Shown here: positions 1 to 62,866 of the stretch, in pieces
Layout of the letters: each line of letters begins with the position of its first letter
Position numbering within the stretch: the stretch's first letter is position 1
Assembly (NCBI GenBank): GCA_029891345.1
Contig: CM057006.1
Location: 46,257,556-46,321,555, forward strand
DNA: 64,000 nt
From: Dryococelus australis
Taxonomy: Eukaryota > Arthropoda > Insecta > Phasmatodea > Phasmatidae
Direction: 5' to 3'
Program-made: the position numbers and the translations under genes
Notes under the pieces: generated by a model
What the model was told of the DNA's origin: nothing
Seen by the model: only the letters and a program-made list of their open reading frames with translations
The model's database searches: none

Positions 1-214
1 GCACAAAAAAAAAAAGCCAAAGAAAGAATTTTGCTATCACAAATGGTTTCCTAAAACACTTTTTATTCGACTTTATGGAACTACTTTCCATCCATCGTTA
101 CCAACTGTACTCGGCGAATGTCATTCAGTGCGACGATTATAATGTATGCATGCAGGGGCAGTGACTATTTTCTAAGGTTCATTTCTAAAGTGCTCACTTT
201 ATCGTGAACAACCT
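1..214 (-). mobile_element. MITE-A copy, cut by window start
   Basis: Reverse-orientation family A copy. The diagnostic inner blocks (CACAAATGGTTTCC, TTTTTATTCGAC, ACTACTTTCC, TCATTCAGTGCG, GCAGGGGCAGTGAC) lead into the end AAAGTGCTCACTTTATCGTG followed by AACAACCT. Its other half lies before base 1. MITEs encode nothing and depend on a transposase supplied elsewhere. Confidence 0.85.
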
Positions 215-1809
215 ACCTTTAACACGAGTTACCAAGAGCTAGTAACTCTTCGAGATTGTACTGTTTGAAAAACAACATTTTAACCAGTTATTTTTTATAT
301 TTTCTATATGGCAAACACATAATTCTGTAGTTAAATATTAATTAGCAGGTAATTTTTATTTAATAATACCGAAATAGTGTGATTAATATACTTTAAGCTT
401 CCTATATCGGAAAGCAAAAGTGAAATAATAATACATTTGCGACAAAACTAATATTTACATATCTGTTACTCCCAAAGTCTGGACATTTCTTTATTCGAAA
501 ACTGCAACTTACGATTCACTGTGCAGCCGTCGCGCTACATGTTCTGTCTGTGTGGTTCACGGCTGCCAGCATGGTAGCAGCACAGTAACGAGCAAAACGA
601 TTACTGATTATCGAAACGAAAATACCGTTGTCTAAAAAGTTACGTTAAAATATTATTCGATGGTAGTATTTATAACATGAACACAGAAATAATTGCATCA
701 CTGGGGAGTATTTTATATCACTCACCTGTACTTATAACGTAAATACTCGTAATCGTATTTCTGCCGTGGATTCCAAATATGACTCCATTTTCTCTCTCCC
801 CAACCTCCGATTCGAACAGCTAGCTACTGGTTCATCCTCAATAACCAGCAACTGGGAGCTAAAGTTTATGTTAGGCGTTGACTTGAGGTGGTAAAACGAA
901 ATTCAGTGCTAGCCTGCAGCTAATTTTGACCGGGAGAATAACAAGTGGTAAAACCGGCCCTAAGACTTGAAAGCGAATTCCGAAACAGAGAAATCACTGG
1001 TCATTACGGAACTATGTCGCTCTGTTATTCACGAGTAGTGGAATTCGCCTCGCTGCTTGATCGATCGAACAAGGGCTTTCCCCGACATGAACAAATAACC
1101 CCAGATAGATCCAGGCCGATGGCGGTGTAGGGGGAGGATGAGGGGAGGAACACATAAAACAAAGACGAAACAGCCCGGCCATAAAGTCGCGAGAACGCAA
1201 CAAAACAAACACGTCAATCTACCATACTGGAAGCGGTCCAGCGAGTTAAAAATACTCAAACGGGCAATTTGTTGAGAAAAAAAAACGATCGAAAACCAAC
1301 AACACAATGAACGATTCAGTACATTACCAGCACAGAACTTACTACAGTAGTTGGGTAAGACAATGTTTTCTGTGTTCTATCGAACAGCGGATGCAGTCAC
1401 GATCTCCCGTCCCTGGAATTCGCAAATACTACGGCAGTAACATCCTTCGCTCTTATTCAGCGTGCACAGAGCCACCCACAGTTATTACAAGCCATGTCCA
1501 CCAACATTTGCCACTTCAGTCATCAGAGTAAACCGAGCTGTGCACACAGACAGCCCCAATCTTTGAAGACAACATTCTATTTCATAGGCACTAGCGTGCT
1601 TTAATTGGCTCCAGTTGAATGCATTCCAATAGGAGGAGATACGTTCCTTCCAACCACAGTGTATGTCATAGAACCACCTTACTGGTCAACAGCGTCATGC
1701 AGAGTTGAATCTACATGGGTCATATTGATGGGGTCAAGGCCTATCCACTTTCTACGAACGCTATTCGTAAAGGGTGCTCTTCCTAGGCGGATCAGACCGT
1801 CAACCCTTC
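215..1809. other. Unassigned AT-rich sequence
   Basis: No gene, RNA or repeat family was recognised. The open frames here are all under 95 residues, overlap on both strands and show no coding bias. The part from about 1540 is slightly more GC-rich and runs up to a fold-back arm that begins at 1810. Confidence 0.5.
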
Positions 1810-2035
1810 TTAAGGGTCCTATGTACTGAAACGTTTTCTGTGAAATCGTTTGCGCAAGAGCGTATCTCTGTAAATAAAAGTTCTGGAAATGCTAAGTTTT
1901 GCCAGACAGGATAAAATATAATTATCTACGCCCCGATTTTTTTTTACTTTTGTCATATTAAGTGTATTCTTGGGGAAAAATTCGTGAAAATGGTCAAATA
2001 TAGCAATTTTAAAGCTTGCCTATGCAGTTTCCGCA
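1810..2035 (-). mobile_element. FB1 fold-back element, single arm fragment
   Basis: Begins TTAAGGGTCCTATGTACTGA and continues with blocks GTTTTCTGTGAAATCG, GTAAATAAAAGTTCTGGAAA, TTGTCATATTAAGTGTATTC, CGTGAAAATGGTCAAA and GCCTATGCAGTTTCC. These match in order the right half of the large palindrome at 41488-42416, from its centre outward. The copy stops where that arm would continue, so it is a truncated half-element. Confidence 0.8.
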
Positions 2036-2760
2036 AACTACACCGGTGGCAGGCCTCCTCCCAGCAGGAAGGTCAACCAGCGCCACCCAGAGTCCGACCT
2101 GCGATCAGCACGGCCTAAGCAGGGGCTTCTCGCTGATCCCCTGGGTCACCACGACTGTACTGTGCACACAGAGTTTTCACCCAGGAGAGGCCCAACTCCT
2201 CCGGGACGCAAGACAGTCCCTTCTGCGGAGCTCCGTCACCCCGAGATCTACCAGCCTCGGTTAGGGACTGTGCCCCCGGCTCGCGGGTCATCAGTGCAGG
2301 CGAAGAATACATGCAGCCCCTGGATAACTAACTACACATGACCTCGCCGTGGCTGACCACCAGTGCACTCGTGGGGCCGCCACATTAGCCCACAGTCGTC
2401 CTCACCCCCGTCAGCCACAGCGTTTCCAGCCCTGACCTATAGAGGAAGTGGCGATGGACTTGAGCAGGAGAGGCTGTGCAATCGCATCACCGCCCCATAT
2501 CGGGGAACAAGCCTTGACGCACGCCGCAACACCCACCCGCTAAGGCCGATAACTCCGGAGCAAGTATCCACCAGGGGGAGGGCCGGACAAGGATAGCCAT
2601 TCCGCTATTGTCACAACTACCCAACCAGGCACTTTGAGGAGACATACTCCGTGCACTCCCTATTCGTCGGGATCTGCTACCGGATTTCAGCAAGTGCATT
2701 TTCTGCCTTCTCGTCACCTTAATGACAGGTTGGTTGCCCTCCATGGCCAGACAGAACAGA
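2036..2760. other. GC-rich island of unknown identity
   Basis: About 700 bp, clearly richer in GC than its flanks and starting exactly where the FB1 fragment ends. Short frames are open on both strands (for example 2363-2596 plus and 2487-2744 minus), but none shows a protein motif I recognise. It could be the 5' part of a non-LTR retrotransposon or a captured host fragment. Confidence 0.3.
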
Positions 2761-2936
2761 ACAAATTAAAATGGCACCAGTACCCAGCCGAAGACCATAA
2801 CTGGTCCCAGTTACTTGAATTTAAAATAAATTTACAAAAATAGTAGAAACATAACATTTGTCGCGTTATAACATTTAAAAACAAGCTAGATTTTAAAACA
2901 GACCCTTAAAATTAATTTCATAATGTTTAAAAGTCG

Positions 2937-7596: not shown

Positions 7597-7599
7597 TGG

Positions 7600-11411: not shown

Positions 11412-11827
11412 AGGCTGTTCACGATAAAGTGAACACTTTCGAAAACTCTGCTTAAGATCTACTTGTATGCACGTCGTGAATTATTCCGCCTTATGTAAAA
11501 TTAACATTGTCATGGACCTCTTCGCTTTATTCATGCGTCGGCCAAGTGAAATTGTGATATTAAGAAAGTAAATATACTTTACAAATCTGCTCATATTTAA
11601 GCTTCGATGCATAAAAAAAATTGAGCGCGAAATAAAAACTTAAGTTATAACAAATGGTTACCTAACGTTTTTTATTCGACGTTAAGATACGGAACTATGT
11701 TCCCTTTATCGTTACCAACTTTACTGGGCGCAAGTCACTCAGTGCGCCCGTTAATATAAATGCAGGTAGGAGGAGCGACTTTTTTCCGAGGTTGATTTCA
11801 AAAGTGCTCACTTTGTGAACGGCCGTT
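11412..11827 (-). mobile_element. MITE-A, complete, minus orientation
   Basis: Starts AGGCTGTTCACGATAAAGTG with CTGCTTAAGATCTACTTG next (the family's 3' end reversed) and ends AAAAGTGCTCACTTTGTGAA, CGGCC. Both termini and all inner blocks are present. It is flanked on the left by CTATA. Confidence 0.9.
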
Positions 11828-12100: not shown

Positions 12101-12488
12101 AGGTTGTTCACGGTAAACAGAGCACTTTTGAAAGCCCTACTTACCATCTACGTCTGTGAGCACTGTGTATTTTTCCACCATACGTAAAATCTACATTTAA
12201 ATGGGCCTCATCACTTTATCCATGAGCCGAAAATGTTAAACTATTAAAAAAGTACACATTTTACAAATTTTCAAATTTTTACTCTTGTATTTAATAAATT
12301 TACCAATGTTTACTCTTGTATGCATAAAAAAAAAACCAAGTAAAGAAAATCGTTTCAGTATTCGTAAATGTTTATTTAAAATACACTTTTAATGCTATTT
12401 TCAGATGCGCAATTACTTTCATTTAGTTGTTACCACGTTCACTGGGCGCACTCCAATCTGCGTGCCGCGTAAAAATATACGCAGGCAA
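12101..12488 (-). mobile_element. MITE-A, minus orientation, one end missing
   Basis: Begins AGGTTGTTCACGGTAAACAG and reads CCCTACTTACCATCTACG through to CACTGGGCGCACTCC and ATATACGCAGGCA. The last roughly 40 bp, including the second terminus, are absent. In their place the next MITE-A copy begins immediately, so the two copies share a junction. Confidence 0.8.
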
Positions 12489-12836
12489 AGGCTATTCACG
12501 ATAAAGTGAGAGCTTTTGAAATCAACCTTAGAAATGTCACTGCTGATACCTTCATATATTTCTCGAGCGCACTGAGCGACATACGCCCAGCACAGTTGGT
12601 AACGATGGAGGAAAAGTAATTCCATACCTTAACGTTAAATAAAGAGTATTGGGTAACTATTTGTAAAATATTTACTTGTCTAATAATTTCACAATTTAAC
12701 TTGACGGACGCATGAATAAAATAGTGAGGCGCATGACAATGTTAATTTTACATTAAGGCGGAAGAATGCACAACGTGCGTACAATTAGATCTTAAGCAGG
12801 ACTTCCGAAAGTGCTCAGTTTTTCGTGAACGACCTT
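12489..12836 (+). mobile_element. MITE-A, internally deleted
   Basis: Begins AGGCTATTCACGATAAAGTG and ends AAAGTGCTCAGTTTTTCGTG plus AACGACCT. At about 348 bp it lacks roughly 70 bp between GGGTAACTATTTG and AAAATATTTACTTG that full copies have. Confidence 0.85.
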
Positions 12837-14910: not shown

Positions 14911-15060
14911 TATAGGCTGTTCACGGTAAAGTGAGCACTTTTGAGGCACTCGTAAATTTTTCCTTTCAGCCATCTTTTATCCCTTAACCACCTTTTTAAA
15001 CAAATATTGTAACGTAAGTTATAAAACCACAGTGTGTATATTCCATAGTATACAGTTTGT
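14911..15060 (+). mobile_element. MITE-B, 3' end missing
   Basis: TATAGGCTGTTCACGGTAAA, AGTGAGCACTTTTGAGGC, TTTTTCCTTTCAGCCATC and CCACAGTGTGTATATTCCAT match the family B 5' half. The downstream half and second terminus are not recognisable. Confidence 0.8.
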
Positions 15061-15230: not shown

Positions 15231-16046
15231 TTAACGCAGTTAATACACTTTTTGAAGCAAACCCTTGGAAAATCATCCAATGAATGACGCATTTCACCGT
15301 TTTCTAAATATGTCCTGAAACACAAGCGTTTTATACTTTTGTTAACATAAAAGAATCTTTTGTTCAATTAAAACATTGCATTATATTTTATAAATCAAAA
15401 TATTTAATTTAAAATTAATGTGAATAAAAGAGAAAAAACAGGCGTGTTGATAATGCCTAAAGGCTGTTAACAGTAAAATTAGCACATTAGTTAGCCCTGC
15501 TTAAGATCTACTTGTATGGCACGTTGTGTATTATCTAGACTTATGTAAAATGAACACTGTCTTCGGTCTCATCACTTTATTCGTGCGTTGGTCAAGTGAA
15601 ACTTTGAAATTATTAGAAAAGTAAATATTTCACAAGTATTCTCCTTTTTACACTTCGATACATAAAAAAAAAAGTACAAAGCGAAATAGATATTTTAAGT
15701 TATTACAAATGGTTACCGAACACTTTAAATCTGAAGTTAAGATATGGAACTATTTTCCAGCCATCGTTATCAACTTTACTGGGCGAATGGCAGTCAGTGC
15801 GCCCGATATATGCAGGCAGGAGAAGTGACTTTTTTTAAGGTCGAGTTCATAAGTGCTCACTTTATCGTGAACAGCCTTTCGTAAAAACCAGTTCTCCTGC
15901 AAAATATTACTAAACTTAGTGCGCACGAATGCGGTGCGTTGTCGCTTTGGTGTAATTTTCTTCGCTTTGTTTGCATGAGGCGGAGGAATACCCTGAAAGT
16001 AGAAATGTAGCATAGCTTCGGAAAAGTTGGAAGTAACCATGGATAG
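15231..16046 (+). mobile_element. MITE-C interrupted by a MITE-A
   Basis: The left part (ACACTTTTTGAAGCAAACC, AATCATCCAATGAATGACG, CACAAGCGTTTTATAC, GTGTTGATAATGCC) and the right part (GTAAAAACCAGTTCTCCTGC, GTGCGCACGAATGCGGTGCG, ATGAGGCGGAGGAATACCC, GGAAGTAACCATGGAT) together make one family C element like that at 28844-29260. They are split by the MITE-A at 15461-15877. Comparison with the uninterrupted copy shows the insertion at a TA. Confidence 0.8.
15461..15877 (-). mobile_element. MITE-A inserted in MITE-C
   Basis: Starts AGGCTGTTAACAGTAAAATT, then CCTGCTTAAGATCTACTTG, and ends AAGTGCTCACTTTATCGTGA, ACAGCCT. The left flank GCCTA and right flank TCGTAAAA, set against GCCTAGTAAAA in the empty relative near 29085, fit a TA duplication whose right copy mutated to TC. 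Confidence 0.9.
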
Positions 16047-18072
16047 AAGATAAACAAAACCGCTTTAATATTCCCCGCTACATTCAAGAGACGCCTAACC
16101 CGCTGGACTGTGATGTCCGGCACAACTACTTGTGTTCGGTCCTGTTTGGTGCGGCGAGGGACGTTTCGTTTTACAAGATGAAACTCTTTTCTTGTTGAGA
16201 TACATTCTTCGACTTTTACATTCAGTTTCGTGGCGATAATTTGCTTATTTCCTGGTTTTCAACACCCTCCCCACAATCACTTTCATAGTGTGTTTCGGTG
16301 TGGCCTTCTAGGGCAGAGTTGTAAATCTAAAAACGGATTTCCATTTCTTTTCTAAAACAACCGGAGATTGTGGGGGGGGGGGGAATCCCAAAGACAAGTA
16401 AAAGGACTGGACAGGGCTCAGCAGCTACAGCACAAAAATCATTGCTGTGCATAACTAATACGTGTGAAAAAAATATAACACCAGCAAGCTAAATGACATC
16501 CACAAACTACCTGAAGAAGTCCCAACAGCGTTTAACGAACCACGACAAAATGATTGAATGGGCGTAACACTAGTAAACAATTTACCTGCTTGCTCTTTCC
16601 GTTAATGTCCAATTTAAAGGGCCTTACATTAACAGCGACTAAAATTACACATCAAGAACGATTTTAAAGAGCAAACAAAATTCACTGATACAAAATAGGT
16701 ACATTTAGAGCCACTGAACGCGAAATGGACAAATTTCCCTGCAGTCAAAAAGTCTGTAATTACTTCGAATGAGCTACTAATGCTGAATGGCACTCGTTTG
16801 AAACGTTACGTTACATTACCACGTTTTATTGTAACGCTTTTAACTTTTACGATTCTACAACATACGCCAGCTACCGTACTTTACGATTCCTCGACTTTAC
16901 GTGCAAATAAGTTTAATATGACGGCTTCCATTGAATATTTTAAGTGTAGAAAATACGCACGTGTGCAACCATGCGTGAAATACTCTAGTACTGCTGAAGC
17001 GATAGGGATTTAAATCTTGTATCAGTAACACAGAAATTTTTATTTGCTCCCCTATTTCTTTTCTACAAAAAAAAACTACACGCTATCGAATTTTAACAAA
17101 TGCGAAACCACTAACGTCTTTTTTTTTCACGTTTCCTTTTTATATCAGCTCAACTTACGACGTTTGTGTGAAAATGCTAGGTTACGTAAAGTCCCGGGTA
17201 TCCTAAAATTTTAAGATAAAATAAGTCTTACTGAATAGGACAACTTTTTTGTCAATTTGCTGCCTGGACTTCTGCGAAGACATGCTAACGAAGTTGACAT
17301 GAACATAAATCCCCCCCCCCCCTTTTTTTCTCTCTCTGCTGGAATTGTGGTCTGGGTAAAATCGTATCTGTACTGCCTCGTCGTTACTAGCTGCTCACTT
17401 ATCTTACCATACACACATACTAGTCAGTTAAGATATCTTAGTGGCTATAAAAGCAATGTAATCTCTGGTAAATGTATAAACGCTTCAACAAGCGTTGTTT
17501 TACTTCGACGAGATGCCTTGTTAACATTCGAAATGAATGATATGTCGTTGCGAAATGACCTCGTCCTCCTCCTGGTGAATTTGTTCAGGGTGGCAGTGGT
17601 AACGATTATTTTAGAAAGTTTCAGTACCACTGATTTAATACTTTCGTGACTTAAGATACATGCAAATTAATGAACTGCAGTTAATCACAGTAACCTAACT
17701 TATGACAGCTGTAACAAAACATGCACGCATTTTAAAAATTATATAGTTATTTTTTAATGCGTACTATTAAAATAATTTTAGTATTTGCACCTGATTTTAA
17801 ATAGTTGCCAGAAGGCGACCCTACAATTGTTTGACGTATTATAGTTCTGGTAGAAAATGTACAGAAAATTAGAGACCGGCAAAGAATAACTGTAGCCAAG
17901 CATAAGGAGCACAATAAAGAAATCGGAACTTAGATACGTTCAGCACATGCAGCTTGTATCATCATGTGGCTAGCAAAAATTACTTACGTGACCAGTAATA
18001 TGATTGCCAGCAACACAAACCTGGCTAGAAATCTATCCTAGGTGCGTGAATACATATAGGCCTAAAAGGTGT
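16047..18072. other. Unassigned AT-rich sequence
   Basis: About 2 kb. It contains a 12-G run (16372-16383) and a 12-C run (17311-17322). A 130-residue plus frame (17257-17649) starts across the C run and is opposed by frames on the minus strand. It lacks codon bias or known motifs and I do not call it. Confidence 0.4.
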
Positions 18073-18838
18073 TGACTAACCTGTCTAAATTCAAACCACA
18101 GAATCTTTGGATTAAAATAAACAAAAAATCCTACTAACAAAATTTTGGAAAGGTCATGAGTATTTTTATATTTAAGTAGAAGTTAGGCAAAACAACGCAG
18201 GGAGTCCGCAACTTCTCGTACGTACGTGGACAGCAAGTTTCATACCACGAAGGCGAACGGAACTGGCACGTCATGCAGAGAGCGCCGCTAGTGGTGTTGC
18301 TTCTTAGTATACGCGTATCAAACTACATGAACAATGGGAAATTAACAGTTAAGTAGTAAAGGCTGCTATAGGCTATTCACGGTAAAGTGAGCACTTTTGA
18401 AAGCCCTCTCATTTGGAATAATAGTCAATAAATATTTTATTGTCGCCTTAGACGTTTACTTCCAGTGCGGTGCGATACACACACTGTGTTTATTATTTAG
18501 ATGGCGATATTTAGTTAGAAATATGATTAACGGATTTTAAAAATGGCTGATAGGAAAAGTAACTAGAGCCTCAAAAGTGCTCACTTTACCGTGAACAGCC
18601 CATATAAGTGATTGCATTTAATTTCCGGCATGGTGCGCCAATTCCGTTCGCCCTCGTGGTATACAACTTGTAAGGCATGCAGCTACGTGAAGCTGAGGAC
18701 ACCTACGTTGTTTTGCCGAACTTCAACCGAAATTTAAAAATACTACACGACCTTCTACAAACATGATGTTACTAAGAGTTTTTATCTGTGTTTACAATAG
18801 TCCACTGAAGCTGTGGTTTGTATTTCGACATGTTAATG
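18073..18838. mobile_element. FB3 fold-back element with MITE-B in the loop
   Basis: The left arm (TGTCTAAATTCAAACCACAG, TAGAAGTTAGGCAAAACAAC, CATACCACGAAGGCGAACGG) is repeated in reverse in the right arm, whose complement reads TGTCGAAATACAAACCACAG, TGAAGTTCGGCAAAACAAC, TATACCACGAGGGCGAACGG. Arms are about 200 bp each. The loop 18287-18625 carries a MITE-B. No coding capacity. A fragment of the same family is at 36018-36065. Confidence 0.75.
18368..18604 (-). mobile_element. MITE-B, complete, minus orientation
   Basis: ATAGGCTATTCACGGTAAAG to CAAAAGTGCTCACTTTACCG and TGAACAGCCCATA. Internal blocks AATAATAGTCAATAAATA and AAAATGGCTGATAGG are family B reversed. It sits between the two arms of FB3. 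Confidence 0.9.
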
Positions 18839-20338: not shown

Positions 20339-20740
20339 TTATAATCCATTCACAGTTACTTCACACTGATCTGAAACCCTGCTATTCCTCCACCTCGTGC
20401 AAACTAAGCTTAATTAAGTCCATAAAATTACACCAAAGAACATCGCACCGTATTCGTACGCAATAAGTTGTAATAATATTCTGCATGCGAACTGTTTCTT
20501 ACCAAGCACTACCAACACACATGTGTCCTCACTGTTTTTATTCATATTAATTATAATTGATATAATATACAAATAAAATATAGGTAAGACTTGAAATTAA
20601 CGAAAAATTATAAAGTTTTATGTTAAAAGAAGTATAAAACGACCGTGACACATGGTGTATTTGGGAAATAACTTAACACGTCATACATGGGGTAATTTTT
20701 CAAAGGTTTGATTCGAAAAGTGTGAAAAAACCACGAATAG
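20339..20740 (-). mobile_element. MITE-C, complete, minus orientation
   Basis: ATAATCCATTCACAGTTACT, TCACACTGATCTGAAACCCT, TGCAAACTAAGCTTAATTAA, TACCAACACACATGTGTCCT, CATGGGGTAATTTTTCAAAG and the end AAAAGTGTGAAAAAACCACG, AATAG. The terminus resembles those of MITE-A and B, with ACTTCACACTTTT in place of AAGTGAGCACTTTT. Confidence 0.85.
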
Positions 20741-21745
20741 ACAGCTAATTGACAGCAGCAAGCTGAAAACTCCAGGGTAAATTACAGTTAAAACACGTAC
20801 ACGGGAGGTATACGGGAGTCATAATTCTGTACTCAATTCCGTACTTCAACCCTTACAAATTATACGTTCCCGTAAAAAAGTAAAATGTTAACATACTGTA
20901 TCGCAACCTGTAATTAAATAGTTTTCCCTCAAAAATAGTATAAAATACAATGCATGAATATTATAGGGCTGATTGTATGGAATTAAAAAAAAAAATCAGA
21001 GGGTAGGGGCACATGAGAAGGCAAAGAGTCCGAATAGGCGATTCTATAACGGAGAGAACGCTATAAGGTCGACTCTAGCCGACTCCCCACTTGCCCATCG
21101 CCTCTACGGGCAAGGCGCTCAACAGGTGCGCAATATTTCCGCCGGCGACTCACCTAAAAGTGACTAAGCTGTGACTGTACATTTGTATGGCAAGCTAGCA
21201 AAGATAAAAGTATGATGCGGGTCTAAAAAAAAAAAAATCTGAAGTTCCTGTGTAAAAAAATGTATCAACTTAAACTGATAAAAAAAAACTGGTTTAGCCA
21301 TTTCCACGTACCCCCCATTATTAAAAAGGGGGGGGGGGGGGTCTCTGAGTTTAAGTTAAAACTTGAAACATTTCTTTGGCCACGGAACGATTCTTAAATG
21401 CTTTCCGTGTTCTGTCACTACTACAAAATATCGCAACGTTTTCCAATGACGTGTTTTCTACCAAACCTATATCTGCAATGAACTTCAAGCACCAACACTT
21501 GAGAATGCGTTAGACATAAATCAAGGGCGTGAAAGTTCATTGCATTCTACAAGTTTATGGGAGGCAACATGAAAAAAACCCCAAGAAATGGCAATCACTA
21601 CATAACTGCCGTTACCGACTTTTACAGCGCATATTTTACCACCAGTATAATGCATTCTTGGCGAGTTATATCTTGCGCCGTAAATCTGCACGTGCCATTG
21701 CGGCTAAGATATTGTGCAAAATATTTGTTTACACAGCTGTCAACT
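20741..21745. other. Unassigned sequence
   Basis: AT-rich with a small GC-richer patch at 21000-21170 and a 14-G run at 21328-21341. No gene recognised. Confidence 0.4.
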
Positions 21746-22114
21746 GATAATAGTCCAATCGTGGTAACTTACTACCTATCTGAAGCCCTGCGGAAGTTCA
21801 CCTTCCCTCTCAAGCTATTCCCCCAGCTCATGTAAACAGAGCTAAACCAAGTCATGAAAATTAATACTGAAGAACAACGCACCCCGTTAGTGGGCTCTCA
21901 GTAGGCATTACCAACACACCTGTTTTTATTCGTACTAATTATACATTGAGTATTATAATTTATGTATAAAATTCACGCAAAAGTTCACTATAATAAAAAT
22001 TGCCATCTTTTTATGTTAGCAGACGTATAAGCGGCTTTCGATACATTACGGTTTTAGGAAACAACTAAACCCGTCATTCAAGTTTGATTCCAAAATTTGA
22101 AGATGCCGCGAAAA
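21746..22114 (-). mobile_element. MITE-C, minus orientation
   Basis: ATAATAGTCCAATCGTGGTA, CTATCTGAAGCCCTGCGGAA, CAGCTCATGTAAACAGAGCT, ACCAACACACCTGTTTTTAT and TTGATTCCAAAATTTGAAG follow family C order. More diverged than the neighbouring copy. Confidence 0.8.
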
Positions 22115-22302
22115 GTCTGTATCTAGGATCGGCCTTTCTTCGTTTTTCTACGTTCGGCGTACTTGGATTAACGTATTTGGCGTTAATTTCTGCTCCACCA
22201 CGCCCTCAAGAGCACCAACTTCCGCCCAGCGGGAGACCTGGTGGTTCGAGTCCCAGCACAGCACACCCCTACACGGATGAAGGAAAAAAGGGGGGGGGGG
22301 GT
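22115..22302. other. Spacer with B-box-like motif and poly(G) run
   Basis: Contains GGTGGTTCGAGTCCCAGCAC near 22241 (a tRNA-like B box without a convincing A box) and a 12-G run at 22290-22301. Possibly a ruined tRNA-derived SINE. Confidence 0.3.
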
Positions 22303-23741: not shown

Positions 23742-24376
23742 ACAAGGTCAAGATGTTAGGGCGCGATGAGGACGGCACTAACGCGTGCTCTAGCGCCTCA
23801 TCGCTCCTGCACGCAAGATGTGCAGTGTTTCCGTCGTAACGCTGTGCTGTGTAAATTAGAACTGAAACAGTGAGATTATTTCACCCATAGAATAAAACAA
23901 TAAAACTACGCCCGTATATTTATACTCTTCTCTTGCCGCTTTAATAAATTGCATAAGCAAGCTTTAAAAATGCGATATTTTACCATTTTCTCCAGCAATA
24001 CACTTAATAAAAAAAAAAAAAAAAAAAAAATAGAATTACGGATAATTGTTGATATTTTCTATAGGCTGTTCACGATAGAGTGAGCACTTTTGAAGCCCTA
24101 GTTACTTTTTCCATCCCGCCATTTTTTTATCCTTTAACCACTTTTTTGAAATAAATATAACTATGTAAGTAAGAAACGTAGTTTGTATATTTCACCTCAC
24201 TCTGAAGTTAACGTCTAAGGCTAAAATAAAATATATTTATTGATACTCTTCCAAATGAGAGGGCTTTCAAAAGTGCTCACTTTACCGTGAATAGACAATA
24301 ACAAAGAAATCGTATTTGCAGAACATTTATTTACCGAAATACGCGTATTTGCGCAAAAGCTATTTCACAAAAACCG
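23742..24376 (+). mobile_element. FB1 single arm, interrupted by MITE-B
   Basis: ACAAGGTCAA, CTAGCGCCTCATCGCTCCTG, GTGCAGTGTTTCCGTCGTAA, TTGCATAAGCAAGCTTTAAA and TTATTTACCGAAATACGCG match the left arm of the palindrome at 41488-42416. The outermost 45 bp and the palindromic centre are missing. A MITE-B occupies 24061-24295. Confidence 0.8.
24061..24295 (+). mobile_element. MITE-B, complete, inside FB1 arm
   Basis: ATAGGCTGTTCACGATAGAG, AAGCCCTAGTTACTTTTTCC and CTCTGAAGTTAACGTCTAAGG, ending AAAAGTGCTCACTTTACCGT plus GAATAG. It interrupts the FB1 arm between TATTTTCT and the AAATCGTATTTGC block, so it is younger than that arm. Confidence 0.9.
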
Positions 24377-28424: not shown

Positions 28425-28843
28425 AGGCTGTTCACGATAAAGTGAGCATTTAAAAAAAAATAAACCATTGAAAAAAGTTACTGCTCCTACTTGCATATAT
28501 TTTGACGAATGCACTGAGTAACATGCGCCCAGTAAAGTTGGTAATGATGGATGGGAAGTAGTTCCATGTCTTAACATCGAATAAAAAGTGTTAGGAAACC
28601 ATTTTTGACGACTTTTATTATTTCTTTCGTTTTTTTTTTTAATGCATCAAGTGTAAAAATGAGCAGATTTGTAAAATATATACTTTTATAAAAACTTCAT
28701 AGTTTTACTTTAAAGACGCATGAATAAAGTGACAAGGCCCATGGCAAGGTTAAGTTCACATAAGGCGAATGAATACACGACGTGTATACAACTATATCTT
28801 AAGCAGGGCTTTCAAAAGTGCTCATTTGACCGTGAACAGCCTT
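28425..28843 (+). mobile_element. MITE-A, complete
   Basis: AGGCTGTTCACGATAAAGTG to GGCTTTCAAAAGTGCTCATT and TGACCGTGAACAGCCT, with every family block in order. Its right end is followed without a gap by MITE-C. Confidence 0.95.
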
Positions 28844-29260
28844 TATAGTTTATTCGCGGTTTCTTCACACTTTTTGAATTAAACCTTTGAAAAATCTTCC
28901 CATGTATAACGTGTTTAGTTATTTCCAACATATGCCATGTATCACAAGCGTTTTATATTTGTGTTCATGAAAGTTACTTTTTTTTCCTGTTAAATTTAAA
29001 TGTTATTCGTATTTTATCAATAAATTATAACGTTTCATTTGTAAATAATCTTAATAAAAAGAGTGAGAAAACATGCGTTGGTAGCGCCTAGTAAAAAAAA
29101 AATAGTTCTTATACAAAACACTGTTGCACTGAGTGCGCACGAATGCTGTGCGCTGTCGCATTAGTTTTAATTCCCTATAGTTGGTAACGCTTTGTTTAAA
29201 TGAGGCGGAGGAATATCCTGGAAGCTTCAGAAAAGTGTGAAGTAACCGTGAATGGATTAT
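28844..29260 (+). mobile_element. MITE-C, complete
   Basis: TATAGTTTATTCGCGGTTTC, TTCACACTTTTTGAATTAAA, CACAAGCGTTTTATATTTG, GTTGGTAGCGCCTAGTAAAA, GAGTGCGCACGAATGCTGTG, AATGAGGCGGAGGAATATCC and the end AAAAGTGTGAAGTAACCGTG, AATGGATTAT. The best uninterrupted family C reference in the window. Confidence 0.9.
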
Positions 29261-30046
29261 AGTTGAGACAATGCTCTCTGTTTCTGTATCAAGTATCATT
29301 TTCATACGAGTCCCGTGGGATAAAGCAGATTCTCGATGGAGCATAAATATATAATTGCCGCCACAATTTTGCATCAAGCCCCGTGACAGAAATTACACAA
29401 CGATGAAAGATATCCTCCGGCTGAAAAACTGCAAGAAAAAACCCGTATATTACAGGGTTTGTGTATCGTTCTGTTCTGGGCAAAGTTCGATAATTTCACC
29501 ACGCTTTTCAAAGTCTGCTTCACCAAAACAATTTCAGTTCTCTTGGTGGAAAGGAAAGGGAACAAAGAAAAAAAAAACTCATAAAAGGTATAAAAGGCCC
29601 GCCGTTTCATTACTTGGCAAGTGTGTACTTCATAATAGCCGTTACGCAAACTGCTAGCGACTTGCAAAGAGCCGACACAAACCCAACTTTCAACTCTCCC
29701 AAAAGACAGCCCGTGGTTAATTAAACGCAGCAAGTTCTAAATTGCCATTGAGAAGGACCAGAGGCTTGTTTTGTCACTTGTTTTCCTCTCGGAGGTTTCT
29801 CAATTCTAAGAAGGGGGTTGGATAGATGGGGGAAGGAAGGGTGCAAGTGTGAAAGTCCTATATCGATCTCGACAGGCGGCCACCAAATGGACCGACACTA
29901 ACGCCAACCGCAGGTAAATTAGCCTCGCGTGAGGTCGTAACCCGGCTGGTTAAATGTCAACGAGATACGGTCCACGGAGAGCCAGCACTGCTGCAAATAC
30001 ACTACAGGCTCTTACCGCAGCTAAATTTACGTGAACAATTACCTAA
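29261..30046. other. Unassigned sequence
   Basis: No gene recognised. The frames at 29355-29657 (plus) and 29374-29733 (minus) are mutual shadows without motifs. The stretch 29880-29990 is GC-richer and low in simple sequence, so a conserved non-coding element is possible. Confidence 0.4.
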
Positions 30047-32769: not shown

Positions 32770-33737
32770 TAGGCTGTTCACGGTAAAGTGAGCACTTTTG
32801 AGGCCCTAGTTACTTTTTTGTATCAGTCATTTTTCATCCTTCCTCCAATTTTTCAAATAAATACTGCCATGTTAGTAATGAACACTGTATACAAGATGGG
32901 TCCGTCTAACGTGGACACCCCCACAATTTCCGTAACTGTTGCAGATCACGAAAGCGGTGCTCGCTTAGTGAAATTACGAACGGGGCAAGCAATTTGCCTC
33001 AAAGTGACTCTTCGTAACACGTGTATGTACAGAAATAATTTAACCACACAAGATTTTTCTCCTGGAAATATGCATTTATTTCAACAGCATCTGAACGTAT
33101 GTGTAAAGAGGAATTCAGTGATATAGGTTATGCAATGGAATGTAACACAGGAACGCCAAGAAATATAGTGCAAATATGATTAAATTAAGTGGTCCGCTAG
33201 CATGGGGCAGTGGACATGCACTCATAGCTGTAAGCAAGCATCACGCGCCGTGACACATCGTGGCAGGACAGCTGTGAGTACGGGTCCACTGCCCCATGCT
33301 AGCGGACCACTTAATTTAATCATATTTGCACAATATTTCTTGGTGTTTCTGTGTTACGTTCCATTGCATAACCTGTATAACTGAATTCCTCTTTCCCCGT
33401 ATTTTCGGATGTCAACGAAATAAATGTACGTTTCTAAGGGAAAAATCGTATGTGGGTTTTATTTCTGTTCAAACATGTGTTACGAATAGTTAAGTGTTAC
33501 TAATAGTCACTTTGCGGCAAACTGCTTGCTCCGTACGTAATTTCATCTAATGAAAACTGCATTTCATGATATGCAACCGTTCCGGAAATTTTGTAGATGT
33601 CCACGTTAGGTGGACCACCCTTTATATTTCACCGGACTCGAAAGTTAACGTCCAAGACTGCAATAACATATATTTATTGACTACTATTCCAAATGAGAGG
33701 GGTTCAAACAGTGGTCACTTTACTGTGAATAGCATAT
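32770..33737 (+). mobile_element. MITE-B split by FB2
   Basis: The left part (ATAGGCTGTTCACGGTAAAG, TTTTGAGGCCCTAGTTAC) ends at 32890 after AACACTGTAT. The right part resumes TATATTTCACCGGACTCGAA at 33623 and ends GTCACTTTACTGTGAATAG. Joined, they give a normal family B copy. The 112-residue frame 32788-33126 spans the junction and is not a gene. Confidence 0.9.
32890..33624. mobile_element. FB2 fold-back element, complete
   Basis: About 735 bp forming one long inverted repeat. The left arm reads CCGTCTAACGTGGACA, TGAAATTACGAACGGGGCAA, AGAGGAATTCAG, TAAATTAAGTGGTCCGCTAG, CATGGGGCAGTGGAC. The right arm is its complement, with the centre near 33245-33260. Ends TACAAGATGGGTCC and (reversed) TAAAGGGTGGTCC are flanked by TA. 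The inner arm segments are almost identical while outer parts are diverged. No transposase is encoded. Confidence 0.85.
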
Positions 33738-36232: not shown

Positions 36233-36425
36233 AACATTAGCCACTAATAAATATACTTTATTGCAGCATCAGATGTGAACTTTTGAGAGTGGTGGAAAGT
36301 ATTCATTGTGTTTATTAGTCACGTGGCAATGTTTACATTAAAACGTGGTGGGAATATAGAAATTGGTTGAAACAAAAAATTTAGCAAAGCCTTAAAAAGT
36401 GTTCACTTTACCGTGAATAGCCCAT
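36233..36425 (-). mobile_element. MITE-D, one end missing
   Basis: TTAGCCACTAATAAATATAC, GAGAGTGGTGGAAAGTA, TTATTAGTCACGTGGCAATG and the end CCTTAAAAAGTGTTCACTTT, ACCGTGAATAGCC. The other terminus (about 40 bp) is absent. Confidence 0.85.
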
Positions 36426-37875: not shown

Positions 37876-38241
37876 AGGCTATTCGCGATAAAATGATCAC
37901 TTTTGAAATGAACTTAAGGAAATAGGCACTGCTCCTTTCTACATATATTTCAACTGGCGCACTGACTGACACCCAGAAAAGTTGTTAACGTCGAATAAAA
38001 AGTATTAGGTAGCTATTTGGGACAACTTAAATTATTTCGTTCCTTTTTTTTATGAATCGACCTCTAAAATTAATAAGCAGATTTGTCAAATTTTTATTTT
38101 TCTGATCATATCACAGTTTCACTTGACCGACGCATGAATAAAGTGATGAGGCCCATAACAATGTTAAACATACAAAAGGCGGAAGAACACACAACGTGCA
38201 TACAAGTAGATCTTAAACAGGGCATTTTACCGTGAACAGCA
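37876..38241 (+). mobile_element. MITE-A, internally shortened
   Basis: AGGCTATTCGCGATAAAATG to CTTAAACAGGGCATTTTACC and GTGAACAGC. It lacks about 25 bp around GGAAAGTAGTTCC and the TTCAAAAGTGCTC piece near its 3' end. Confidence 0.9.
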
Positions 38242-38868: not shown

Positions 38869-39105
38869 TATAGCCTATTCACACTTTTGAAACAAACCTT
38901 TGAAAATCACCCCGTGTATGACGTATTTAGTTATTTCCTAATATGGCATATATCACAAGCGTTTTATACCTCTGTTAATATGAAAGCATATTATTATACG
39001 TTAATTTAAGGTGTTACCTATATTTTATATATAAATTATAATATTTAATCTGTAATAAATATGTATACAAATAGTGAGAAAACTCGTGTGTTGGTAGCGA
39101 CTTAG
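38869..39105 (+). mobile_element. MITE-C, 5' half
   Basis: TATAGCCTATTCACACTTTT, GAAACAAACCTTTGAAAATC, CACAAGCGTTTTATACCTC, GTGTTGGTAGCGACTTAG. It lacks about 15 bp inside the terminus and all of the second half. Confidence 0.85.
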
Positions 39106-39282: not shown

Positions 39283-39661
39283 AGACTATTCACGGTAAAA
39301 TGAGCACATTTGAAAGCACTGCTTAAGAACATCTTATATGCACGCTGTGTATTCTTCGGTCTTATGTAAAATTAACATTTGCATGGGCCTCATCACCTTA
39401 TATCTTCGTAGGTCAGGTCAAACTTCGAAATTACTAGAATATTAAATGTGATACAATTCCAATCGTTTTTTTCACTTTAGTACATAAAAAAAAGCGAAAT
39501 AAATCATTTGAGTTACCATTTTTTATTCAACGTTAAGAAATGAACTACTTTAAATCCATCATTACCATGTCACTCAATGCGCCCGTTAAAATATATGCAG
39601 GCAGGGGCAACTACTTTTCTATGGTTGGTTTTAAAAGTGCTCACTTTATCGTGAACAGCCT
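39283..39661 (-). mobile_element. MITE-A, minus orientation
   Basis: AGACTATTCACGGTAAAATG, CACTGCTTAAGAACATCTTA through TATGCAGGCAGGGGCAACTA to TAAAAGTGCTCACTTTATCG and TGAACAGCCT. Short deletions inside. Confidence 0.92.
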
Positions 39662-40475: not shown

Positions 40476-40855
40476 AGGCTGTTCACGATAAAGTGAGCAC
40501 TTTTGAAATAAACACTAGAAAAATGTCACTGGTCCTGCCTGCATACATTTTAACGGGCGCACTGGTTGACATGCGTCCAGTAAATGGAAATCAGTTCCAA
40601 TTCCTAACTTCGAATTAAATGTGTTAGGTTTCCATTTGTGACAACAATTTTTTTAATGCATCTGAGTGTAAAATGGCCAGAGTTGTAACGAGTGTACTTT
40701 TTTTAATGATTGCACGGGTTCGCCTGATTGACGTATGAGTAAACTGACGAGGCCCAAGGCAAATGTTAATTTTCCATAAGGCGGAAGGATAAAAAATGTG
40801 CATACGAGTAGATATTGAGCAGGGCTTTCAAGAGTGCCTATACTAAGGGTTAGCC
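40476..40855 (+). mobile_element. MITE-A, complete but diverged
   Basis: AGGCTGTTCACGATAAAGTG, AAAAATGTCACTGGTCCTGC, GACGTATGAGTAAACTGACG and GAGCAGGGCTTTCAAGAGTG, ending at an eroded terminus AAGGGTTAGCCT. Confidence 0.88.
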
Positions 40856-43780: not shown

Positions 43781-44130
43781 AACTATTCCATTCTTGTAAC
43801 TTACAAACTTTTCTGAGGCCTTGCTAAATTTATACTTTCAGCTATTCATTCTTCCGCCTCATGCAAACCGAGTTGAATTAAGTCAAGGAAATTACATCAA
43901 AGGACAACGCACGGGATTCATGCGCACTCAGTTGTAGCAATATTTTGCATTAGAACTATTTCTTAACTACAGGTAAAACTTCAACTGAACGAAAATAAGA
44001 CACTTTCATGTCCACAAAGGTTAAAAGCGCTTGTGATACACGACATATTTGAGATAACTGAACACGTCATACACGGGGTGATTTTTCAAATGTTTCATTC
44101 AAAACATTTATGAAACAGTGAATTGACTGT
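43781..44130 (-). mobile_element. MITE-C, minus orientation
   Basis: ACTATTCCATTCTTGTAACT, ACAAACTTTTCTGAGGCC, ATTCTTCCGCCTCATGCAAA, CTTGTGATACACGACATATT, TACACGGGGTGATTTTTCAA, ending AAACAGTGAATTGACTGTAC. The middle (TTTTTATTCGTATTAATTAT) is deleted. Confidence 0.85.
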
Positions 44131-44845: not shown

Positions 44846-45087
44846 TATACGATGCTCACGATAACGTGAGCACTTTTGAGGCCCTAGTTACTTTTATCCT
44901 TATCAGCCATTTTTTTTATTCTTCCATCACTTTCTAGAATAAATATAGCACTGTAAGTAATAAGCACAATGTACATATTTCACCGGACTCGAAAGTTAAC
45001 ATCTAAGGCTACAACAAAACATATTTATTGACTATTATTCCATATTAAAGGACTTCAAATAGTGCTCACTTTACCGTGAATAGCCTG
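44846..45087 (+). mobile_element. MITE-B, complete
   Basis: TACGATGCTCACGATAACGT, TGAGGCCCTAGTTACTTTTA, TTTCACCGGACTCGAAAGTT, TTGACTATTATTCCATATTA and the end AGTGCTCACTTTACCGTGAA, TAGCC. The left terminus is eroded. Confidence 0.9.
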
Positions 45088-45972: not shown

Positions 45973-46387
45973 AGGCTGTTCACGTTAAAGTGGGTACTTT
46001 TTGAAATCAACCTTAGAAAAAAGTCACTACTCTTGCCTCCATTTACTTTAACGGGTGCACTGAGTGACATGCGCCCAGTAAAGTTGGTAACAAAGGATGG
46101 AAAGTAGTTCCATACCGTAACGTAGAATTAAAAGTGTTGGGTAACCATTTGTGATCATTTAAATCATTTCTTTCTCATCCTGCGTTTCTTTTATGCATCG
46201 AAGTGTAAAAATTAGCATATTTGTAAAATGTTTACTTTCGTAATAATTTCATAGTTTCACTTAACCGACGCATAAGTAAAGGGATAAGGCCCATGACAAT
46301 GTTAATAAGGCGGAATAATACATAATGTGCATACAAGTAGATCTTAAGGACAACTTTCAGAAGTGCTCATTTTGCCGTGAACAGCCT
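45973..46387 (+). mobile_element. MITE-A, complete
   Basis: AGGCTGTTCACGTTAAAGTG to ACTTTCAGAAGTGCTCATTT and TGCCGTGAACAGCCT, with all inner blocks. Confidence 0.95.
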
Positions 46388-47792: not shown

Positions 47793-48018
47793 AGGCTGTT
47801 CACGGTAAAGTGAGCACTTTTGAGGACCTAGTTACTTTTTCCTTTTAGCCATTTTATCCTTTAACCACTTTTTAAAGTAAATATTGCCACGTAAGTAACA
47901 CAGTGTGTATATTCCATCGCACTCTGAAGTTAAAGTCTAGGACTAAAATAAAATACATTTATTGACTATTTCCAAATGAAATGGCATTCAAAATTGCTCA
48001 CTTCACCATGAATAGCCT
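47793..48018 (+). mobile_element. MITE-B, complete
   Basis: AGGCTGTTCACGGTAAAGTG, TGAGGACCTAGTTACTTTTT, CACTCTGAAGTTAAAGTCTA, ATTTATTGACTATTTCCAAA, ending TTGCTCACTTCACCATGAAT, AGCCT. A clean family B reference of about 226 bp. Confidence 0.95.
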
Positions 48019-52636: not shown

Positions 52637-53064
52637 ATATAATCCATTTACGGTTACTGCACACTTTTCTGAAGCGCTGCTAAAGTTCTACTTCCAGGGT
52701 ATTCCTCCGCCCCGTGCAAACTAAGCTTAACTAAGTCTGGAAAATTACACCAGAGGACAACGCACCGCTTTCTTGCGCACTCAGTTGTAATATTATCTTG
52801 CACTGGAACTATTTATTGGTAGGCCCTACCAATACAGATTTTTCTCTCACTGTCTTTATTCGTGTTTATTATAAAAGAAATATTATAATGTATAAATAAA
52901 ATATAGGTAAAACTTCATTTTACGGAAAATAAGATACATCTGTGTTTGCAGAGGTATAAAACGCTTGATACAAGGCATATTTAAGAAATAACTAAATAAG
53001 TAATACATGGGGTGATTTTTCAAAGGTTTGTGTTGAAACGTCCGAATAATCCTTAAATAGACTA
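52637..53064 (-). mobile_element. MITE-C, complete, minus orientation
   Basis: TATAATCCATTTACGGTTAC, TGCACACTTTTCTGAAGCGC, TATTCCTCCGCCCCGTGCAA, TTGCGCACTCAGTTGTAATA, ATACATGGGGTGATTTTTCA, ending near TGAAACGTCCGAATAATCC. A well-preserved reversed family C copy. Confidence 0.9.
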
Positions 53065-55671: not shown

Positions 55672-55689
55672 CTTGATTTCATTTCGGTG

Positions 55690-57988: not shown

Positions 57989-58706
57989 AAGCTGTTCGCA
58001 GGTAACTGAGCACTTTTGAAATCAATAACCACTACCCCTTAAGGGGACTATGTAGCTGCGCGTCCAATGTCAAGAAACGAGGGAGCGATAAGGGCTAAAC
58101 TAACACGCACGCCTAGGGCCTCATCGCTCCTACGCGCAAGCCGTGCAGTGTTTCAGTCCTAACGTTTTACTGTATAAACTAGATCTGTAACTGCGAGGTT
58201 TTATTACACGCGATGAAAGTAAACACAAATGAAACCACCTACGTATAATCTTACTTCTCTCTTACCGCTTAAAGAAACTTCATGCGCAAGCTTTAAAAAT
58301 ACGATATTTGACCTTTTCCACGATTTATTTCTCCATTAATACACTTAACATAATAAAAGTAAAAATATAGTGACATAGACAATAGTTTTTTTTATCCTTT
58401 CTGGCAAAACTTCGTATTTCCAGAACATTTATTTACCGAGACAAGCGTTTACGCGCAAACAACGGTTTCACAGGAAACGTTTCAGTACCCTCAACACCAC
58501 ATATTTGGAAGAGAGTCAATTAAATTCGTGAGCGCTTGAACTCATTTAATATCACATAGTATAGACCTACACTTAATCGAAGCATGAATAAAGTCAGTGG
58601 ATCCAGAGCAATATTAATTTTACATATAGCGGAAGGATACAAAAACCGACAGAGAACTAGATCCTCATCAGGACTTTAAAAATTGCTCCATTAACGTCTA
58701 ACAGCC
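57989..58706 (+). mobile_element. MITE-A split by an FB1 arm
   Basis: The 5' end AGCTGTTCGCAGGTAACTGA, GCACTTTTGAAATCAATAAC, CACTACCCC stops at 58038. The 3' end (CTACACTTAATCGAAGCATG, AATAAAGTCAGTGGATCC, AGCGGAAGGATAC, ATCAGGACTTTAAAAATTGC) resumes at about 58562. The segment between is an FB1 arm plus about 70 bp of unrecognised sequence. Strongly diverged. Confidence 0.65.
58039..58488 (+). mobile_element. FB1 single arm inside MITE-A
   Basis: TTAAGGGGACTATGTAGCTG at the left, then CCTAGGGCCTCATCGCTCCT, GCCGTGCAGTGTTTCAGTCC, TTTATTTACCGAGACAAGCG and CAGGAAACGTTTCAGTACC. This is one complete FB1 arm from outer end to near the palindromic centre, without its partner. Confidence 0.85.
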
Positions 58707-59485: not shown

Positions 59486-59969
59486 AAGCCTGTTCACGAT
59501 AAAGTGAGCACTTTTGTAATTAAATTTAGAAAAAGTCACTGCCTCTGCCTGCATATATTATAACGGGCGCATTGAGTGGCATGCGCCCAATAAAGTTGAT
59601 AACGAAGGATGGAAAGTAGTTCCATATCTTAACGTCTAATAAAAAGTGTTAGTTAACCATTTGTGATAAATTATGTCTTTCCCTTTCTGCTTTTTCAATG
59701 CATAGAAGTGTAAGAATGAGCAGATATGTAAAGTATTTATTTTCTTAATACTTTCACAGGTATTATTTGACCGACGCATGAATAAAGTGCTGAGGCCCGT
59801 GGCAATGTTCACCCATCAAGTCGAGCCTAGGACTGGTTAGGACCCTCCAAGTCGATCCTAGGACTGCCTAGCACCCTTAAGTTTAGATATGGCGGAGGAA
59901 TATGCAACGTGCATACAAGTATATCTTAAGCAGGGCTTTCAAAAGTGATCATTTTACCGTGAACAGCCT
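59486..59969 (+). mobile_element. MITE-A with a 77-bp internal insertion
   Basis: AGCCTGTTCACGATAAAGTG to GGGCTTTCAAAAGTGATCAT and TTTACCGTGAACAGCC. At 59810-59886 an extra segment interrupts GGCAATGTT...GGCGGAGGAATA. It holds two 31-bp repeats (CAAGTCGAGCCTAGGACTGG and CAAGTCGATCCTAGGACTGC as their starts). Confidence 0.93.
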
Positions 59970-60081
59970 ACACATGCCTGCTGCTGTGCATCGCTTCCCT
60001 TACCCCATCGACCCACTGGAGCGAGTGAAGGTGTGTGTCAAGGCCGGATAAGTTACCCGATGAGTGTGAGGATATTTACAC

Positions 60082-60153: not shown

Positions 60154-60332
60154 ATCGGGACTCGTGCCGTCTTCAGTCTTTTGAAAGGATAGAACGTCTG
60201 GATTTATCGTTAAAGAATGTTCTGTCCATGCGCGAATCGAATAAGGCATTTGGATTTGGAATGATGGCAATACACAGGAAATATGTGTAAATAATGAGAG
60301 TTAACAAATATAAGACACCGTGATAAGGGCTA

Positions 60333-60570
60333 TAGGCTATCCGCGGTACGGTGAGCACTTTCTAAGGCCCTCCCAACATGCATTAATCACTGATAAATAT
60401 ATCTTATGGCAGCCTCAGGCATTAACTTTTGTGAATGGTGAAACGTATACATAGTTTTTTTGGCCACGTTGCAATGTTTATATTAAAAAGCAACAGGAAG
60501 ATAGAAATTGGGTGAAAGAAAAATTTTATAAGGGCCTTAGAAAGTGTTCACTTTACCGTGTAACGGCCTA
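60333..60570 (-). mobile_element. MITE-D, complete
   Basis: TAGGCTATCCGCGGTACGGT, AAGGCCCTCCCAACATGCAT, GCAGCCTCAGGCATTAACTT, GAATGGTGAAACGTATAC and the end GGGCCTTAGAAAGTGTTCAC, TTTACCGTGTAACGGCCTA. The inner part aligns with reversed MITE-B (AATAAATATA, GCCTCAGACATTAACTTT). Confidence 0.9.
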
Positions 60571-60623
60571 TAATTAGAATTTAGATAAACAAATATTGCG
60601 CTCACTGAGAATAACATAACTAT

Positions 60624-61047
60624 AGGCTGTTAACGGTAAAATGAGCACTTATGAAAACCCTGCTTAAGATCTAATTAAACGCAAACTGTGTATCCTACCG
60701 TCTTATGTAAAACTAACATTGCCATAGGCCTCACAACTTTATACACGCGTCGGTCAAGAGAAACTGTGACACTATTAGATAAAGTATATATGTTACGAAT
60801 CTGTTCATTTTAGCACTTCGGCGCATCACAAAAATAACAGAAAACGAAAGAAATAGTTTAAAATATCATAAATGCTTGCCTAATACTTTTTATTCGACGT
60901 ATACACATAGAACTACTTTCCTTCCATAGTTACCAACTTAAGTAGGCGTATGTCACTTAGTGCAACCGATAAAAATATATGCAGGTAGGAGCAGTGACAT
61001 TTTTCCACGGTTGATTTCAAAAGTGCTCACTTTATCGTCAACAGCCT
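60624..61047 (-). mobile_element. MITE-A, complete, minus orientation
   Basis: AGGCTGTTAACGGTAAAATG, CCCTGCTTAAGATCTAATTA through TATATGCAGGTAGGAGCAGT to CAAAAGTGCTCACTTTATCG and TCAACAGCCT. All blocks present. Confidence 0.95.
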
Positions 61048-62629
61048 TTGGTAGCGGGGACAGGTAGATTATGTTATAAAGAATAACTGTTTGAATATTT
61101 ATATCATAAATAAATTAAAAGTTAAATTTAGATATTTATTTAAGACCACCATCCCACACGAACCGATACGTCCCTGGCGTCATGTAACAAGATTTTATTG
61201 AGACCAGCACTGCAAATGTTCTGTGAAGCATTAATTTATCAAAACTGAACAATTTACAGCAACTTCAAATTAATTTCACTATCGCAAAAAAGTTGGCGAG
61301 CAACATTTCACATTCACACAAACATTTCACATCGACCACCAATTTTTTTACCCCCCTGTGGTCCCACGACTTGCAACTTCCTGGTCACCGGCGTAGTGAA
61401 AAGTTCTTGAAAGCTGACCACATAAATGAGTAAGCATAAACAATTGCAATGCATTTAAGTTAAGCTGGAAGCTTCGCAACAAAGAGCACATGCGAGGGTG
61501 AACGCTCACGGCCGCACGTTTAAGTGCTAACCTTTTCTATGACATTCCTTTATATCAGCTGCTTTCAGCTTGGCAAACAGTAATGCGACTGCAACAAGAG
61601 TCAATTATTCTCCCCCCCCCCCATCATCAAGTAAACGTACAAGCGGCCTGTCAGTATTTATGGAGGCACACAAAAGCTTACACATGCCGCCCCATTAAGC
61701 GCAATAAAGAGCAATATGAAAATTTTCATTTTTGTTTGTCCAGGGAAAAATAGTTAAGCTCCTGATATCGAAATATTCGCAAAATGTGTAATTTAAATTT
61801 CCTAGTAGCGGGGGGGGGGGGGGGGGGCGGCCACAAAACTCGTTAACACAAACAAGATTTTTTTATTCAAAAATTTATTTCCAAGATTTATTTTCTAAAC
61901 GCTTAACCGTATCTGTTGATGGCAAAACTAAATCCCACGGTCTATTCGGTTCGCGAATTGACATGGCAGAATCTTGAAATAGGGGGGGGGGGGGGGGGGG
62001 GGAATTGCACATATGTCGTTCGTTCGAATATGCAGCCAGACCACGTTCGAAAAATAGCTGTTCACAAATAGAAGCGGCTCCGGCAAGGCCAGCCACAGAC
62101 AGAAAACACAGCGTGTGCGGCAAGCGACGCACGGAAGATTTTGGCGCGACTTATGGAAAAGAACCGATGACCCCTCTTAAGTGGAATCCGACTGCAATTG
62201 ATTCGCTGAAATCTCCGCTCGGCCGATTATTCACAAACAAAGCGGCCGATTTGGGGGTACTTCATAAATAAGAACATAAACTATTTTATATTTGATTTAA
62301 AATAGGAGCTTTTAGACATGACAAGTGATGTTTCAATTATACAAGAATGATATTCCATAGGTTTTATATAGCAAAAAATAAATACGAGGTTTGAAACACA
62401 TAAAATAAATTAATCATTCACGAAGAAAGATAAATATAAACTGAGACGTAGTGTGTAGTCTTTTTAAGTCTGACTATAAAAGAAAAGAGAGCCAGCCACA
62501 AAAAAAAAACACCATTCCTCTTTGTATAATTAACCTGATCTCTTGAATAAGGTAATAATAATATATTAATGTAAATTACTTCATTTCTTCAAGTGAATTT
62601 TATTTAATATGGTCGTAAATCACTAAAAA
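61048..62629. other. Unassigned AT-rich sequence with G/C runs
   Basis: Contains an 11-C run (61612-61622), an 18-G run (61810-61827) and a 21-G run (61982-62002). The frames at 61875-62271 are opposed and motif-free. Confidence 0.4.
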
Positions 62630-62866
62630 AGGCTGTTCATCACGATAAAGTGAGCACTTTTCAAGGCCCTCCCAACAGGCATTAACCACTAATAAATATA
62701 CTTTATTGCAGCCTCAGACATTAACTTTTGAGAGTGGTGAAACTATACACCGTATTTATTAGCCACGTGACAATAATGATATTAAAAAGTGGTTTAAACA
62801 TACAAACTGGCCTAAAAGAAAAATTTAGAAGGGCCTTAAAAAGTGCCTTTACCGTGAACAGCCTAT
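62630..62866 (-). mobile_element. MITE-D, complete
   Basis: AGGCTGTTCATCACGATAAA (with an extra ATC), GCACTTTTCAAGGCCCTCCC, CAGGCATTAACCACTAATAA, GCAGCCTCAGACATTAACTT, GAGAGTGGTGAAACTATAC, ending AAGTGCCTTTACCGTGAACA, GCCTA. Confidence 0.92.

Follow-up and report, generated by a model that had tools for sequence, protein, structure and literature searches.

We analysed a 64,000-nucleotide stretch (the window) of contig CM057006.1 of the phasmid Dryococelus australis (GCA_029891345.1, positions 46,257,556 to 46,321,555 of the forward strand), which contains many copies of four families of short repeats with the working names A, B, C and D. L and R denote the two ends of each family consensus. 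Profiles were rebuilt from window and fetched copies (19 rows for A, 11 for B, 6 for C and 7 for D, with five of six D copies within one composite repeat left out of the D profile). At an E-value cut-off of 1e-5 they match 39 intervals totaling 11,358 bp, or 17.7% of the window bases, a coverage obtained without a shuffled control; BLAST with A, B and D only covers 12.8%. The intervals are grouped into 35 parts (Table 1). A first-pass annotation, made by reading the sequence alone, had counted about 35 copies and fragments occupying roughly a fifth of the window, which agrees well with these figures. A scan with a 31-bp consensus of the A/B/D terminus finds 44 sites with at least 21 of 31 matches and none with the reversed consensus. 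The choice of cut-off matters, since the reversed counts climb when it is relaxed: at least 20 matches are found at 46 sites (6 reversed) and at least 18 at 82 sites (76 reversed). A to D are genuine, very abundant repeats, a lineage of miniature inverted-repeat transposable elements (MITEs) of an ordinary kind. The MITE families A, B and D, with C more distantly related, likely belong to a single Tc1/mariner-type lineage in this phasmid.

The elements are about 235 or 420 bp long (consensuses 233-426 bp) and no long reading frame is found in the four consensuses, the longest open frame having 74 codons. The ends of A, B and D are WAGGCTGTTCACGRTAAARTGAGCACTTTTGA, the terminus reading WAGGCTGTTCACG, with terminal inverted repeats of about 31 bp on both sides; these three families are thus bounded by inverted ends (W)AGGCTGTTCACGRTAAARTGAGCACTTTTGA. 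The ends of C are ATCCATTCACGGTTACTTCACACTTTT and GTCTATTCGCGGTTTCTTCACAC, followed inward by A-like sequence. C copies do not carry the AGGCTGTTCACG... start, and their terminus is different, or at best diverged. The proposal that all four families are MITEs sharing one type of terminus therefore holds for A, B and D but not for C.

The dinucleotide TA, whose frequency is 7.7%, lies directly before the W base of the terminus at 31 of the 44 window sites. It also adjoins 58 of 86 termini across the window and the fetched loci, in a count that excludes L031 (see below) and all but one of the six copies of a composite repeat. The element base beside the TA is mostly A at the L end of A and T elsewhere. 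Nested copies display the same target. At locus L050, a C copy holds an A copy, which in turn holds D, with C the earliest at that site, then A, then D; at L053, an A copy lies within another A copy. The junctions at both loci fit a TA duplication. In the window, the A copy at 15461-15877 splits a C copy whose two parts overlap by 2 profile positions. Some details weigh against this picture: 28 of the 86 termini have no TA, which we read as mutation or truncation, the right end of D in L050 is without the W base, and the left flank in L053 falls a few bases short of the A consensus. Overall, the TA flanks and nested junctions fit insertion of the Tc1/mariner type, not TWA or TTAA duplication. 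The start GGCTGTT resembles some Harbinger ends, and A to D might be taken for PIF/Harbinger (Tourist-like) or piggyBac MITEs. However, the flanks carry TA plus an element base, and the two sides match neither as the 3-bp TWA duplication of the former nor as the TTAA duplication of the latter; such an origin is very improbable.

We searched the whole assembly (3,415,067,245 bp in 646 contigs) for these ends. A 20-mer of the A/B/D terminus, with up to 2 mismatches, has 377,899 matches (189,238 + 188,661), versus 14 (9 + 5) for the reversed 20-mer. The C end ATCCATTCACGGTTACTTCACACTTTT, with up to 3 mismatches, has 20,042 matches versus 1 for its control. In 14 sampled 5-kb regions placed at round coordinates, including two without a BLAST match (L034 and L047), the profiles cover 10.7% of the bases (bootstrap 6.6-15.4%). 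The estimate falls to 5.5% (3.7-10.9%) when scaled by the number of termini counted genome-wide, and to 4.7% with the window's own ratio. The sampled regions hold 15 strict termini versus about 7.7 predicted from the genome mean, so that the two lower figures are safer. The window itself holds 27 strict termini, about four times the genome-mean density. The measured copies are old, with no fresh one among them, as judged from median Kimura two-parameter distances to the consensus of 0.135 (A), 0.128 (B), 0.151 (D) and 0.149 (C) and a lowest single-copy distance of 0.075. Locus L031 (C1:4346301-4347900) harbors, at about 505-1066, a tandem array in which a 63-bp unit, made up of a MITE terminus and flank, is repeated about nine times. 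The array continues into a B/D-clade MITE at 1022-1253 and is a minisatellite that arose from the end of a MITE.

Table 1. Copies of families A to D in the window, listed mostly from profile matching; ranges in brackets are profile positions.
Copy	Position	Strand	Basis
A, L part (1-214)	5..214	-	profile
C fragment (30-279), weak, 42 bits	3355..3603	+	profile
A, old copy (6-341), 54 bits	6805..7126	+	profile
A, full length, flanks CTAA / ATAA	7125..7550	+	terminus scan, profile, flank reading
A (2-419), damaged L terminus	11412..11824	-	terminus scan, profile
A (56-419)	12101..12492	-	profile
A, internal deletion, two intervals	12489..12834	+	profile
A fragment (144-419), weak, 39 bits	12985..13248	-	profile
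B half (100-233)	14915..15049	-	profile
C (24-248 and 247-423, two intervals), interrupted by the next A	15246..16047	+	profile
A, full length, within C	15461..15877	-	profile
B, full length	18371..18600	+	profile
C, full length	20340..20744	-	profile, C-end reading
C, profile end to end	21750..22119	-	profile
B, full length	24064..24295	-	profile
A, full length	28425..28842	+	profile
C, full length, directly adjoining A	28846..29261	+	profile, C-end reading
A, full length	30048..30446	+	profile
A, full length	31988..32407	+	profile
B, two intervals with ~730 bp of other DNA between them	32772..33733	-	BLAST, profile
D (48-235)	36235..36422	+	profile
A, profile end to end	37876..38240	+	profile
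C fragment (15-247)	38873..39102	+	profile
A, profile end to end	39284..39661	-	profile
A (1-402)	40476..40841	+	profile
C, internal deletion, two intervals	43785..44129	-	profile, C-end reading
B, full length	44851..45085	-	profile
A, full length	45973..46387	+	profile
B, full length	47794..48017	-	profile
C, full length	52638..53063	-	profile, C-end reading
A in two pieces with other DNA between: L terminus 57989-58025, R part 58568-58706	57989..58706	+	BLAST (L), profile (R), terminus scan
A with 67-bp insertion (window 59810-59876)	59487..59969	+	BLAST, profile
D, full length	60334..60569	+	profile
A, full length	60624..61047	-	profile
D, full length, profile match 62635-62864	62630..62864	+	profile

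Other repeats were observed in the window. An inverted repeat at 33044-33455, with 188-bp arms that are 85% complementary, lies in the DNA that splits the B copy at 32772..33733. A perfect 207-bp tandem duplication occupies 33817-34230, and a minisatellite with a 30-bp unit lies at 55502-55681. A further repeat family is found at 23780-23896, 41547-41663 and 58103-58219; with the 41547 copy as reference, the other two are 69% and 86% identical.

The first-pass annotation had divided the families into two clades, A/C and B/D, and we compared their consensuses with shuffled sequence as control. For the ends, 33 bp were trimmed off each consensus and the next 127 bp were locally aligned, with 1000 dinucleotide shuffles for each of 24 end pairs; B was oriented to place at R the end matching D. 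An earlier test had used 49-bp ends of smaller consensuses with 200 shuffles, and interiors were compared with 300 shuffles. B and D are alike throughout: no shuffle scored as well for the interior of reverse-complemented B with D (0/300) or for their like ends on both sides (0/1000). The claim that A and C are alignable at both ends stood, their resemblance being mainly at the ends: 0/200 for each 49-bp end, 16/1000 (L) and 4/1000 (R, z 4.2) with 127 bp, and 13/300 for whole interiors.

Between the clades, no alignment is obtained at the L ends or over much of the middle. The R ends of A and D, past the terminus, gave 0/1000 (z 8.3) in an alignment of about 95 columns with many mismatches, and those of A and B gave 1/1000 (z 4.7) over about 70 columns. 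All other cross-clade end pairs gave at least 62/1000, with z below 2. In the 49-bp test, both A-D and C-D gave 0/200 at the R end, of which the longer test did not keep C-D; the A-D interiors gave 1/300. The consensus alignments firmly indicate that A and D are alike past the terminus at the R end, and indicate less firmly the same for A with B and A with C. Several results speak against this common R end. C matches neither D (93/1000) nor B (62/1000) there with 127 bp, and the A-B R ends gave 80/200 with 49 bp. The interiors of C and B gave 1/300 in a non-colinear orientation that does not fit a shared end. A B/D profile found colinear matches in 6 of 13 A copies, the best at 5.1 bits, but one of 260 shuffles reached 6.6, and this signal is too weak to be used by itself. 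Finally, the A-B and A-C values at the R end are modest, since 24 pairs were tested after the A-D alignment had been seen.

We looked for a transposase donor by reading 64 best-scoring transposase loci: 30 for DDE_3, 10 for DDE_1, 12 for Transposase_1 and 12 for HTH_Tnp_Tc3_2, out of 14,198, 8,242, 720 and 10,466 first-look candidates, respectively. Each locus extends about 1.5 kb either side of the match, a span that longer elements could escape. None of the 64 holds an element with A/B/D ends and a transposase. This is a point against the favored reading of one Tc1/mariner-type lineage, although absence of a donor is not established by such short flanks and so small a sample of the candidates. 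At L015, L056 and L075, A ends lie outside the transposase match and A sequence resumes on both sides. L015 had the appearance of a 1.54-kb autonomous A element, but what lies there is a Tc1-like transposon, with ends of its own, within an A copy. The A copy at L056 encloses a fold-back mariner whose arms are 633 bp long. At L075, A resumes either side of about 1.65 kb of inner DNA, whose own ends were not found. All three were rejected as A donors. Fold-back structure recurs among the 12 loci with mariner-type matches: L056, L060, L062, L065 and L066 have inverted repeats of 428-634 bp, and L061 has one of 224 bp.

Six of the 30 DDE_3 loci (L006, L013, L018, L020, L025 and L026) have a D element upstream and were likewise rejected as donors, since all six are copies of a single long MITE-bearing repeat. 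These copies are 87-92% identical, over 3.1-3.5 kb common to five loci and 2.2 kb in L018, and comprise a Tc1-like frame (361 codons in L026) with the D-type MITE about 480 bp upstream. The MITE in this composite repeat spread as a passenger. The likeness of the A to D termini to ten other transposon ends is weak. The best lead, and a lead only, is the mariner copy L063, whose end CGAGGGGTGTTCACAAAGT has a TGTTCAC...AAAGT core also present in the A/B/D terminus but differs in its first bases and by a 3-bp gap. Its p value of 0.0045 against A/B/D is the lowest of 30 uncorrected comparisons and is not significant after correction. A Tc1-like family with the end CACAGTCGAATCACATTATTATGA (L004, L009, L015, L019 and L027) is a separate transposon, of which the L015 copy lies inside A; its ends gave uncorrected p values of 0.04 for L015 against A/B/D and 0.007 for L027 against the C terminus.

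Two histories had been proposed for these families: one transposase mobilizing unrelated interiors, or the radiation of one ancient element. If one transposase had moved two unrelated DNAs, any likeness beyond the terminus would be due to chance. The L ends and most of the middle, which do not align between clades, would agree with this, as would the whole A-B interiors (187/300 and 9/300 in two orientations) and the 49-bp A-B R ends; the A-D and A-B R ends at 127 bp and the A-D interior argue otherwise, and we regard this explanation as unlikely. The interiors are thus not wholly unrelated, the R end being partly common, although the remaining sequence does differ between the clades; radiation fits somewhat better.

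A common R end could also have been acquired. Recombination or conversion may have joined an R end of the A type to another element, making B/D a chimera rather than a sister of A/C. The likeness beyond the terminus is confined to one end, and copies are dense and nested, both of which would suit such an exchange; the A-D alignment at the R end is however full of mismatches, so any exchange between copies would be old. This origin is possible but doubtful, and descent of the families from one source element is favored over exchange between copies. Under common descent, one DDE/D transposase would have recognized the A/B/D ends and moved copies by cut and paste. The R end of the source element would have been kept, the L end and middle would have been lost by replacement or deletion as A/C and B/D arose, and the source of C would have drifted to another terminus. 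The donor of the transposase may be rare, decayed or lost. A to D were probably mobilized by one enzyme of a common transposon type. We put forward only tentatively the complete scenario, in which a single MITE lineage, defined by its terminus, accounts for about 5-10% of the 3.4-Gb genome and was moved by one mariner-like transposase that is lost or undescribed. One end would have been retained as a portable module through replacements of the middle and the opposite end, with C as a terminus switch within the lineage.

The ends and the target now allow a lineage covering several percent of the D. australis genome to be named, which would assist the classification of phasmid repeats. The similarity at one end makes it possible to test how MITE families diverge, and the copy number raises the question of which transposase could move so many. 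The terminus strings matched no transposon paper in a largely open-access literature, outside repeat databases. Stowaway elements of plants have the terminus CTCCCTCC. Like Stowaway-type and other Tc1/mariner MITEs, the families described here are short and non-coding, with inverted ends, a TA target, many copies and presumed cut-and-paste movement; unlike Stowaway proper, A, B and D have the terminus WAGGCTGTTCACG and not one of the CTCCCTCC type. In the D. australis genome report, the assembly is given as 3.42 Gb in 17 major scaffolds (1,879 scaffolds, N50 262.27-262.28 Mb) and its repeats as 63.29%, with 1.56 Gb of 2.17 Gb unclassifiable (PMC10268593). Mass MITE expansion in phasmids is already known, on the basis of figures for Clitarchus hookeri and a citation for Bacillus: the C. 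hookeri report gives MITEs as the commonest repeat type of that species (87 models, 1,214,018 copies, 5.79% of the assembly), cites abundant MITEs for Bacillus and says that they are absent from Timema (PMC5691397). The MITEs of C. hookeri resemble A to D in their phasmid host and in their very high abundance.

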